Shown piece after piece: positions 8,997 through 41,031 of a stretch of 43,568 nucleotides of DNA. Below the pieces are notes generated by a model. That model had not been told where the DNA came from. It did not search any database and was given only the letters and a program-made list of their open reading frames with translations. Position numbers and translations under genes: made by a program. Every line of letters starts with the position of its first letter. The stretch's first letter is position 1. Source of the DNA: Flavobacteriaceae bacterium (lineage in GTDB: Bacteria; Bacteroidota; Bacteroidia; Flavobacteriales; Flavobacteriaceae). The stretch lies in contig CANJWG010000006.1 of the NCBI GenBank assembly GCA_947478365.1, forward strand, positions 1 to 43,568, in the 5' to 3' direction.

Positions 8997-9101
8997 AATT
9001 TTTATTTTAATTTATTCAAAAATAGTATCCAATACCCTATAACGTTAAAACATCACCATTTATTATAAACATTGTTGTAAACAATTTTACAGAAAGAAAA
9101 A

Positions 9102-9171
9102 AGAGAATAGAAAATAGACTGCACTTAGCCTTAAAATCTATATTCTATTCTCTATGTTCTATATTCTTTAT
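9102..9171. repeat. Intergenic 7-bp-periodic array with an inverted arm
   Basis: From 9137, five units of exactly 7 bp follow each other (TCTATAT, TCTATTC, TCTATGT, TCTATAT, TCTTTAT). About 19 nt upstream is the complementary strand of the same words (AGAGAAT, AGAAAAT), giving a 17-bp inverted repeat (9102-9118 with 9137-9153) with one mismatch. It lies between the divergent 5' ends of the TPR gene and ftsE. It is one of several arrays with period 7 in this window. Confidence 0.75.
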
Positions 9172-21984: not shown

Positions 21985-22797
21985 ATGAAACAAATTACTT
22001 CCGCTCAAAATCTGTTTATAAAATCTTTAATTCAGCTTCAAGAAAAAGCTAAAGCCCGAAAACATTCCGGCACTTTTTTGATTGAAGGCATACGCGAAAT
22101 TGAGTTAGCTGTAAAAGGAAATTACGAAATCGAAACATTACTATTTGTACCTGAAATCGTAACCAATTTGCAAATTTCCACCCAAGGCGAAGCAGAACTG
22201 AACGGAGTTAAATTTTCAAATTTTCAAATCATTGAGATATCAAAGGAAGTTTATCAAAAACTAGCCTATCGAGATACCACTGAAGGCATTTTGGCAGTAG
22301 CTAAAACCAAATCGCTACAATTAGCTGATTTAAAACTTTCTGAAAATCCTTTGATTTTAGTGATGGAGGCCATTGAAAAACCAGGCAATATCGGTGCGGT
22401 TTTGCGAACTTGTGATGCGGCTAAAATAGATGCCGTAATTATCGCTAATCCAAAAACAGATTTATATAATCCGAATATTGTTCGCTCAAGTATTGGGTGC
22501 TTATTTACCAATCAAATTGCAACGGGTTCTACTGAAGAAGTAATTGATTTTTTAATCAAACAAAATATTAATTTTTATAGTGCCACTTTGCAAAATTCGA
22601 CTTCCTATCATACTCAAGATTACACAACACCAACTGCATTGGTAGTTGGCACAGAAGCTACAGGATTATCCGAACTTTGGCGTGAAAAAGCTACTCAAAA
22701 TATTATAATTCCGATGCAGGGCGAAATTGATAGTATGAATGTTTCTGTTGCTGCTGCCATATTGATTTTTGAAGCTAAGCGACAACGAGGGTTTTAA
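21985..22797 (+). CDS. TrmH/SpoU-family RNA 2'-O-methyltransferase
   Basis: A 270-residue SPOUT methyltransferase. An N-terminal substrate-binding domain (SAQNLFIKSLIQLQEKAKARKHSGTFLIEGIRE) resembles RlmB/TsnR-type enzymes. The SpoU motifs follow in order: MEAIEKPGNIGAVLRTCDAAKIDAVI, LVVGTEATGLSELW and IPMQGEIDSMNVSVAAAI, which carry the knot and SAM pocket. It methylates ribose 2'-OH in rRNA or tRNA using S-adenosylmethionine; the exact nucleotide is not predictable here. The length is normal for the family. A 7-bp repeat array begins directly after its stop codon. Confidence 0.88.
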   Translation: MKQITSAQNLFIKSLIQLQEKAKARKHSGTFLIEGIREIELAVKGNYEIETLLFVPEIVTNLQISTQGEAELNGVKFSNFQIIEISKEVYQKLAYRDTTEGILAVAKTKSLQLADLKLSENPLILVMEAIEKPGNIGAVLRTCDAAKIDAVIIANPKTDLYNPNIVRSSIGCLFTNQIATGSTEEVIDFLIKQNINFYSATLQNSTSYHTQDYTTPTALVVGTEATGLSELWREKATQNIIIPMQGEIDSMNVSVAAAILIFEAKRQRGF

Positions 22798-22867
22798 TTT
22801 AGGATTTAGGAGTTGGGATTTACGATGCTTTTTACTAATTCCTTTTCCCTTATCTCTTATCCCTTAT
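22798..22867. repeat. Two 7-bp-periodic word families in one register
   Basis: Directly after the trmH stop come TTTAGGA, TTTAGGA, GTTGGGA and TTTACGA (22798-22825). Further on come CCCTTAT, CTCTTAT and CCCTTAT (22847-22867). The two blocks use unrelated words, yet their starts are 49 bases (7 x 7) apart, so the whole gap stays in a 7-bp register. No ORF or terminator is seen. Confidence 0.75.
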
Positions 22868-22881
22868 TTTTAAATTTTCCA

Positions 22882-22913
22882 TTTGCACAGTTCATTTGTA
22901 ATACCTAATTTTA
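22882..22913 (+). promoter_or_regulatory. Possible promoter of the rel/spoT gene
   Basis: TTTG at 22882-22885, 20 bases, then TAATTTTA at 22906-22913, one base off TAnnTTTG. It is placed 20 nt before the ATG at 22933. Confidence 0.4.
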
Positions 22914-22932
22914 GGAATTGATTGAAATTGCT

Positions 22933-25152: not shown

Positions 25153-25187
25153 TTGTGAGTTAATAAATTATGAGTTATGAGTTATTT
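25153..25187. repeat. Short 7-bp-periodic array after spoT
   Basis: Immediately after the spoT stop lies a short array with 7-bp units, clearest as ATTATGA, GTTATGA, GTTATTT at 25167-25187. It is weaker than the other arrays in the window and sits just before the fur promoter. Confidence 0.5.
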
Positions 25188-31541: not shown

Positions 31542-32282
31542 ATGTCGCGAAGACAATTTGGTTTACTAGGAAAAAACATTAGCTATTCCTTTTCAAAGAA
31601 ATACTTTACCGATAAATTTGCTTTGGGAAATTTAGCCGATTGCTCTTACGAGAATTTTGACATTCAAATCATTGAAGAATTCCCAACAGTTATTGCCAAT
31701 AATCCTGATTTAATTGGCTTGAATGTTACCATTCCATATAAAGAAACAATAATTCCTTATCTGAATAAACTTTCTAAAAATGCAGCTCAAATTGGAGCCG
31801 TAAATGTTATTCGGGTTACCAAAAAAGGAAACCTAAAAGGCTATAATTCTGATTATTATGGTTTTATGGAATCTTTAGAACTATTACTAAAACCACATCA
31901 TAAAAAAGCATTAATTCTCGGAACTGGTGGCGCAGCCAAAGCAGTTTCATTTGCGTTGGATAAGCTCGGAATTCTATACACTTTTGTGACTCGTGAAGAA
32001 AAAGAGGGCATGATTGATTACAACCGAATCAATGCTACTATTTTTGATAATTATCAGATTGTGATCAATTGTACACCTGTTGGCACAAGTCCAAACACCA
32101 AAGAATTTCCTCCAATTCCATATAATTTTTTCACTGAAAAACACATCGCCTTTGATTTGATATACAATCCCGAAGAAACACAGTTTTTGAAAAAAGCTAA
32201 AAAAAAAGGTGCCATTACCAAAAACGGTTACGAAATGTTAGTCTTACAAGCAGAAAAAGCCTGGAAGATTTGGAATAAATAA
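31542..32282 (+). CDS. aroE: Shikimate dehydrogenase
   Basis: A 246-residue NADP-dependent enzyme reducing 3-dehydroshikimate to shikimate in aromatic amino acid biosynthesis. The substrate half has FGLLGKNISYSFSKKYF, GLNVTIPYKE (catalytic Lys67), IGAVNVI and GYNSDYYGF (Asp104). The nucleotide half has ALILGTGGAAKAVSFAL and NCTPVGTSPN, then DLIYNPEET and NGYEMLVLQAEKAW. It is slightly short compared with E. coli AroE but complete. It is coupled to the upstream TPR gene. An eight-unit 7-bp array begins at the base after its stop. Confidence 0.93.
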   Translation: MSRRQFGLLGKNISYSFSKKYFTDKFALGNLADCSYENFDIQIIEEFPTVIANNPDLIGLNVTIPYKETIIPYLNKLSKNAAQIGAVNVIRVTKKGNLKGYNSDYYGFMESLELLLKPHHKKALILGTGGAAKAVSFALDKLGILYTFVTREEKEGMIDYNRINATIFDNYQIVINCTPVGTSPNTKEFPPIPYNFFTEKHIAFDLIYNPEETQFLKKAKKKGAITKNGYEMLVLQAEKAWKIWNK

Positions 32283-32338
32283 TTGGGATTTAGGATATTG
32301 GATTTAGGATATTGGATTTGGGATATTGGATTTGGGAT
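32283..32338. repeat. Eight-unit 7-bp array directly after aroE
   Basis: Eight consecutive 7-bp units with no indels: TTGGGAT, TTAGGAT, ATTGGAT, TTAGGAT, ATTGGAT, TTGGGAT, ATTGGAT, TTGGGAT. Partly a 14-bp super-unit. It starts at the first base after the aroE stop codon and ends 55 nt before rlmH. It has no dyad symmetry, so it is not a terminator. Confidence 0.85.
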
Positions 32339-32393
32339 TTATAACGAAAGAGGAATTATTGAAAGCATTCGCAATAAGCAACCGTAATAATCT

Positions 32394-32867
32394 ATGAACA
32401 TCAAACTTTTTGCCATTGGTAAAACAGATAACAAAGCATTGCAATCATTAATTGATGATTACACCAAGCGGTTGTCTTTTTACATTAAGTTTGATTTGGA
32501 AATTATTCCCGATATTAAAAACGTCAAAAACCTTTCAGAAAGTCAGCAAAGAGAAAAAGAAGGTGAATTGATTTTGGCTAAGCTTACATCGACAGACCAA
32601 TTGATTTTATTAGATGAAAAAGGCACTACTTTTTCCAGTGTTGGTTTTTCAGATTATCTGCAAAAGAAAATGAATACTGGAACTAAAACTTTAGTTTTTG
32701 TGATTGGCGGTCCATATGGCTTTAGCGATGAAGTCTATCAAAAAGCACAGAGCAAAATTTCACTTTCACAGATGACATTTTCGCATCAAATGGTACGCTT
32801 ATTTTTTATCGAACAATTATATCGTGGTTTTACTATTCTCAGAAATGAACCTTATCATCATCAGTAA
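32394..32867 (+). CDS. rlmH: 23S rRNA pseudouridine-1915 N3-methyltransferase
   Basis: A 157-residue SPOUT-class methyltransferase of RlmH length. It starts MNIKLFAIGKTDNKALQSLIDDYTKRLSFY. The SAM knot has LILLDEKGTTFSS and LVFVIGGPYGFSDEVYQKA, and the C-terminus is SLSQMTFSHQMVRLFFIEQLYRGFTILRNEPYHHQ, including the invariant YHH ending. It methylates the pseudouridine in helix 69 of the large subunit after 70S assembly. No anomalies. Confidence 0.97.
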   Translation: MNIKLFAIGKTDNKALQSLIDDYTKRLSFYIKFDLEIIPDIKNVKNLSESQQREKEGELILAKLTSTDQLILLDEKGTTFSSVGFSDYLQKKMNTGTKTLVFVIGGPYGFSDEVYQKAQSKISLSQMTFSHQMVRLFFIEQLYRGFTILRNEPYHHQ

Positions 32868-32905
32868 AAGTACGATTTACGAAATACAATTTACGAAGTT
32901 CAATA
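32868..32905. repeat. 7-bp-periodic array after rlmH
   Basis: Units TACGATT, TACGAAA, TACAATT, TACGAAG (32871-32898) follow each other exactly 7 bp apart, starting 3 nt after the rlmH stop. The array runs into the 3' end of the convergent lipoprotein gene at 32900. Confidence 0.7.
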
Positions 32906-40954: not shown

Positions 40955-40977
40955 GTGTAGTGTTGTGTGTTGTTCCG

Positions 40978-40985
40978 CAAAGATA
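40978..40985 (-). promoter_or_regulatory. -7 box of purM promoter
   Basis: TATCTTTG on the minus strand matches TAnnTTTG exactly and sits 23 nt before the purM ATG. The region where the -33 box should be is occupied by the 7-bp array and lacks a TTG, so promoter strength is uncertain. Confidence 0.5.
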
Positions 40986-40986
40986 A

Positions 40987-41021
40987 GATTAGATTTGGGA
41001 TTTGAGATTTGGGATTTGGGA
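40987..41021. repeat. 7-bp-periodic GGGATTT array upstream of purM
   Basis: GATTAGA, TTTGGGA, TTTGAGA, TTTGGGA, TTTGGGA run in 7-bp steps between the OmpA gene stop and the purM promoter. The words resemble those after trmH and aroE but on this side are read antisense to the genes. Confidence 0.8.
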
Positions 41022-41031
41022 TTTTTCAGAA

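Follow-up and report, generated by a model that had tools for sequence, protein, structure and literature searches.

An intergenic heptanucleotide tandem repeat directly downstream of aroE in a Flavobacterium genome, probably grown where a small gene was lost

Repeats with a unit of seven nucleotides are over-represented in a wide range of bacteria, and to our knowledge no reason for this unit length has been established. In F. psychrophilum, variable-number tandem repeat (VNTR) loci are built of the 7-bp units AATAGGC, AAAGTTT, AAATCTA, AATTCAT, TTAGGCA, TTAAAAA, AATCTGA and ATTTTAG; they are mostly intergenic, vary in copy number between isolates and are used as typing markers (PMC4501049). 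The repeats of Xanthomonas and Nostoc (GGGNATC and GGGGAYT) are 7-bp, G-rich and intergenic. They lie at most 50 bp from a stop codon, which they may overlap, when on the sense strand, or from a start codon when on the antisense strand. Inverted pairs occur, and two species share repeats between corresponding genes, with variation in length and sequence (PMC4692102). Direct repeats of TAACTGA form intergenic arrays near ORF edges in Beggiatoaceae, Cyanobacteria and a few Bacteroidetes (PMC4679880). In Chloroflexus aurantiacus, heptamer satellites of the type (GATAGRA)n are scattered in one species (PMC6749651).

The sequence analyzed here (hereafter the window) is a stretch of 43,568 nucleotides, one contig of a Flavobacterium MAG (1.9 Mb, 151 contigs, 85% complete). 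Read from 32280 to 32340, it consists of TAA, the stop codon of aroE, followed by TTGGGAT TTAGGAT ATTGGAT TTAGGAT ATTGGAT TTGGGAT ATTGGAT TTGGGAT TT. This reading agrees with the eight exact 7-bp units directly after the stop that a preliminary description had reported, the units being three different words (TTGGGAT, TTAGGAT and ATTGGAT) rather than identical copies. The 14-bp order claimed there was borne out by a period match of 97% at period 14 against 74% at period 7, and the array was indeed the longest among the single heptad arrays of the window. Its left border is truly at 32283, since the preceding base, the A of TAA, breaks the repeat. A search with GGATNTNGGATNTNGGAT allowing up to two mismatches returned 11 matches, against 0.26 expected by chance, while the strict form (GGATWTN)3 occurred at one single place in the whole 1.9-Mb genome. 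Being made of tandem 7-bp units and lying outside coding sequence, between the aroE stop and the start of rlmH, the array is a heptanucleotide intergenic repeat, a kind of which bacterial examples have been described before. The coordinates of the features are collected in Table 1.

Table 1. Genes, heptad arrays and associated features of the window
Feature	Position	Strand	Evidence or remark
aroE (shikimate dehydrogenase)	31542..32282	+	stop TAA 32280-32282; Pfam Shikimate_dh_N E=2e-18
Heptad array, eight 7-bp units + 2 nt, 14-bp order	32283..32340	+	sequence read, period match, pattern search
In-frame remnant NERGIIESIRNKQP + stop, putative C-terminus of lost 61-aa ORF	32343..32387	+	BLOSUM62 score 29 vs L019 C-terminus
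rlmH (SPOUT methyltransferase)	32394..32867	+	Pfam SPOUT_MTase E=2e-55
Second heptad array (TACGATT/TACGAAA type)	32868..32904	.	between convergent genes
Heptad array directly after trmH-like (SpoU methylase) stop 22795-22797	22798..22826	+	SpoU methylase confirmed by Pfam
C-type heptad array (CTTATCC), partner of trmH array	22841..22867	+
Leader of relA/spoT-like gene, conserved with G248	22880..22932	+	local alignment score 48 vs highest shuffle 37
Short heptad array (TTATGAG), 15 nt past relA/spoT-like stop	25168..25185	+
Heptad array (GATTTGG), 7 nt from stop of minus-strand OmpA-family gene	40991..41024	+
Complementary heptad array pair (hairpin) between divergent genes	9093..9171	.	gap z -3.5

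An assembly artefact of the MAG is an extremely improbable source of the array. The MAG is fragmented and short repeats are hard for short reads; however, 58 bp is shorter than a read, and complete Flavobacterium genomes assembled as one contig (G122, G212) also contain heptad arrays of this kind.

Among the described systems, the F. psychrophilum loci resemble the aroE array in genus, unit length and intergenic position, whereas the placement at gene edges, the pairs of words and the conservation of slots reported below are not described in the sections of that paper considered here (PMC4501049). The G-quadruplex type GGGNATC was rejected for the aroE array, since it needs at least four GGG tracts with short loops and only three units are TTGGGAT, the others having GG. 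More generally, the Xanthomonas and Nostoc repeats use one word per clade with four G3 tracts forming a G-quadruplex, while Flavobacterium uses many words (PMC4692102). Identity with the TAACTGA repeat was likewise rejected on the words of the units; that repeat has a single fixed word and stands mostly just upstream of starts, unlike the aroE array (PMC4679880). The Chloroflexus satellites also have one word, and the consulted part of that report does not describe their placement relative to stops (PMC6749651).

The aroE-rlmH gap itself has a readable history. In most relatives that keep the gene pair, the gap measures 4-8 nt or the genes overlap (L020, L023, L027, L209, L212, L213, L215, L218, L221, L282). 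In a tree of the two genes, the window grouped with L209 (G248, gap of 8 nt) and L210 (G226, gap of 80). The array is lineage-specific, and these comparisons indicate that it is new since the split from the nearest sampled relatives. One relative, L019, carries a 61-aa ORF inside the gap, a member of a family found directly before rlmH in many Flavobacterium genomes. In the window, a double stop lies upstream of rlmH; the 14 codons that end there encode NERGIIESIRNKQP and match the C-terminus of the L019 ORF, LVKEIVDSIRNRQQ. The score of this comparison, anchored at the stop, was reached by none of 1,316 real C-termini and by one of 11,866 pseudo-termini, the latter taken from a gap set that includes the aroE-rlmH gap itself. 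The likeness was significant only in the in-frame protein comparison, the DNA-level match of the 53-nt remnant to the ORF not being significant alone (score 20, shuffle mean 16.9). The presence of this in-frame remnant downstream of the array suggests that the array fills a gene-loss scar, where it appears to occupy the place of roughly the first 47 codons of the 61-aa ORF. ORFs of this family, about 60 aa long and mostly directly upstream of rlmH, were seen in L019 (6830-7015), L037, L057, L217, L222, L250, L251, L256, L257 and L263; the L019 member, the one scanned, had no Pfam match.

In three relatives (L026, L210, L211) the same gap is filled by a dispersed palindromic repeat of the type CCATATAAG...CTTATATGG, unrelated to heptads. 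The gap thus accepts new sequence, and the heptad words recur across the genome, as they would if the array belonged to a mobile element, a MITE- or REP-like repeat that had entered behind the stop codon. We nevertheless regard such an insertion as highly improbable: the aroE array has no inverted ends, the local ORF remnant on its right leaves no room for a larger inserted unit, and no known structured RNA was matched in Rfam at the curated threshold within the window. Matches in the own genome cover the repeat or small chance pieces only, never together with flanks, and for this reason growth is favoured over mobile insertion. Of the two origins at gene ends envisaged in the preliminary description, growth was therefore retained, inside the scar, and insertion of a mobile unit was not.

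We consider it probable that the aroE array is a lineage-specific intergenic heptanucleotide tandem repeat that lies in the scar of a lost ORF of about 61 codons, grew by duplication and is bounded by gene edges. The small ORF between aroE and rlmH would have been lost, leaving non-coding DNA in which the array would have arisen after the split from the nearest sampled relatives. Growth would most likely have proceeded by duplication at the DNA level, first 7 bp and later 14 bp at a time, through replication slippage or misaligned repair, and the array probably has no specific function. The copy-number variation between F. psychrophilum isolates is the behaviour expected of slippage (PMC4501049). 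The C-terminus of AroE, AEKAWKIWNK or nearly so, followed by the stop, is unchanged across relatives. The array would start directly after the stop because it sits in the scar of the small gene and because the first base there is the first one left free by selection on AroE. Coding DNA cannot keep heptads, since 7 is not divisible by 3 and a stop codon occurs in most of the words; arrays would therefore reach gene edges on either side.

A comparable situation was found in the trmH gap. G248 has a DoxX-like gene, so named from its sequence alone, between trmH and relA, and the window has the paired arrays 22798..22826 and 22841..22867 where that gene stands. The leader of the relA/spoT-like gene, whose identity was confirmed by Pfam, marks the right border of the lost gene. 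The array begins directly after the trmH stop, as had been claimed. In both the aroE and the trmH cases, arrays thus stand where a neighbouring gene was lost. Gene loss as a general rule was rejected, however: synteny breaks affected 6 of 11 array gaps and 11 of 23 other gaps, so that the scar explanation is local. On the far side of rlmH, the second array follows the stop at 32867 immediately, within the 3 nt stated in the preliminary description, and spans the entire 32-nt gap from one stop codon to the other, the two genes being convergent. Relatives carry heptads with other words in this gap.

Heptads are abundant throughout Flavobacterium. The genome-scale analyses covered an 820-kb sample of the own genome and about 800 kb from five other species. 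In 171 kb of intergenic DNA of relatives, 73 period-7 arrays were counted against 1.3 in Markov shuffles, together with 39 arrays of period 14 and 25 of period 21, both multiples of 7, whereas 1.3 Mb of coding DNA held 4 period-7 arrays. In the own genome a first sample gave 15 period-7 arrays against 1 in shuffles, and the 820-kb sample gave 41 heptad arrays with other words. Period 7, with 14 and 21, was the most enriched short period in Flavobacterium gaps; periods 4-6 and 9-13 were at or near chance, and periods 8 and 16 showed a smaller excess. In intergenic DNA of L019-L098, arrays of period 16 (27 in 171 kb, where 0.7 were expected) and of period 8 made up a second, smaller repeat class. 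Thirteen other genera of the family, each represented by one 20-kb stretch, yielded 2 period-7 arrays in 30 kb of gaps; the density in Flavobacterium is therefore not a family-wide constant. A GGAT-type word was present in 23 of 150 Flavobacterium genomes and in 8 of 101 genomes drawn across the family.

Placement was compared with a uniform distribution within each gap for 51 informative arrays, which came from the own genome and five other species, six Flavobacterium genomes in all. Twelve arrays lay within 3 nt of a stop codon (2.8 expected) and 14 within 5 nt (4.2 expected). The uneven distribution predicted in the preliminary description was thus found, whereas the specific tie to gene 3' ends proposed there did not hold. 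Start codons were crowded as well, with 16 arrays within 10 nt (7.7 expected), and in same-strand gaps of the six genomes 18 arrays were closer to the stop and 17 closer to the start. Exclusive attachment to stop codons was therefore rejected. Crowding of both kinds is expected if arrays fill all the non-coding room left by coding constraint. For GGAT-word arrays alone, 16 were closer to the stop and 9 to the start; the plus-strand subset of GGAT-pattern arrays showed no excess at gene edges, so that the evidence for crowding at edges comes from the unbiased sample of words. G-type words tended to lie nearer the gene on their 5' side, mainly in the own genome (31 against 15, P=0.026, six genomes; 24 against 9 in the own genome and 7 against 6 in the others), a tendency that the aroE array fits and that resembles the one described by Rehm et al. 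for Xanthomonas and Nostoc (PMC4692102).

The position of the array against the stop and the excess of stop-abutting arrays over uniform expectation are features that an element of aroE mRNA 3'-end formation (terminator or processing signal) would have. In Xanthomonas, transcript ends are commoner at heptad repeats capable of forming G4 (PMC4692102), and the 58-nt array RNA, taken in isolation, can fold into a weak hairpin rich in G-U pairs (-8 kcal/mol, z -3.2). Against this stand the crowding at start codons and the lack of any site resembling an intrinsic terminator (stable hairpin followed by a T run) in 32200-32450. The whole aroE-rlmH gap folded no better than shuffles (z +1.26 to +1.4), and a hairpin function for the array was rejected on this ground. 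The two genes that flank the array share a strand and are separated by 4-8 nt in relatives; the array is therefore probably inside one transcript. No promoter-like site was found at the array and the gap has no TANNTTTG box, so that full termination would cut off rlmH. A role in aroE mRNA 3'-end formation is thus very unlikely, and the suggestion of a part in mRNA 3'-end handling was not upheld.

The recurrence of heptads in the same gaps is harder to account for. Of 27 gaps orthologous to array gaps, 13 contained heptads, compared with 7 of 90 other gaps (Fisher P = 1e-5), the 27 gaps not being independent because they were drawn from seven slots. The words often differ: gap 40955-41031 has GATTTGG here, GTACGAA in G248, AAGCAGA in G290 and GAATTGT in G182. 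Whole replacement of the word between species, the array or hairpin being kept, was seen in this gap (with L268-L284) and at L110:6598-6669 (with L317-L319). At the latter, both arms of a heptad hairpin were re-worded in step (own genome, G171, G233/G182), and mean arm pairing was -14.4 kcal/mol within species, more favourable than in any other of 24 pairings, and -5.8 kcal/mol between species. Within units, a 4-nt core varied less than the other 3 nt, both in relatives (67 substitutions against 84.7, P < 0.0005) and in the own set (41 against 47.4, P = 0.04), and the vocabulary was restricted: 37 gaps gave 12 pairs with identical words, where 2.3 were expected. In L318 and L319, in the gaps that correspond to L110:5557 and L110:10683, and at L199:2704-2940 we also observed a dispersed element of about 80-100 bp containing CCCGCTGTCC...CGGTAGCT...CATCGGGGC. 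It had no Rfam match at the curated threshold and takes the place of heptad hairpins of the own genome. Rfam gave a single match across the five sources searched, Flavo-1 RNA (RF01705) at L318:12475-12554.

These data raise the question of whether arrays are slot-bound functional elements, that is 7-nt-periodic or hairpin spacers (terminator, processing site, insulator or landing site for an RNA-binding protein) with interchangeable words. The heptads of orthologous gaps, the joint change of the L110:6598 arms and the conserved core would fit such elements. So would the strong folds (z below -3) in 35% of array gaps against 17% of others, but the fold difference over all gaps was not significant (P = 0.24). 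GGATTTR arrays found by pattern between same-strand genes (L007-L018, L119-L147) had the C-type word on the mRNA in 21 of 25 cases (21 against 4), one locus being counted twice; of 29 such arrays, none was located between divergent genes. In the relatives' rlmH neighbourhoods, however, the strand bias was absent (28 against 26). The aroE array has the minority G-type word on the mRNA, no partner arm and no terminator, and its whole gap folds at shuffle level. The bare junction of 4-8 nt in relatives indicates that an array is dispensable there. Such a function is on balance unlikely. The related proposal that conserved slots must hold 7-nt-periodic sequence, single or as a hairpin pair, with the word free and with arms and units re-worded together over short evolutionary times, is in our view unlikely too; if true, period and pairing, not sequence, would be maintained by selection or by a dedicated DNA mechanism. 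Growth by duplication in a gene-loss scar remains our preferred reading of the aroE array. The restricted vocabulary and the recurrent heptads in the same gaps count against it, since plain slippage from random seeds predicts neither, as does the sparing of the 4-nt core by substitutions more than chance would allow.

We found no description of genus-wide heptad placement or of re-worded slots in the open-licence papers searched. The aroE array alone is ordinary; less so is the return of heptads, frequently with other words, in the corresponding gaps of other species. This wider pattern has its use: orthologous gaps can be compared across many Flavobacterium species, and the heptads in them come, go and change word, making the birth of arrays, their limits at gene edges and the co-change of arms directly readable.
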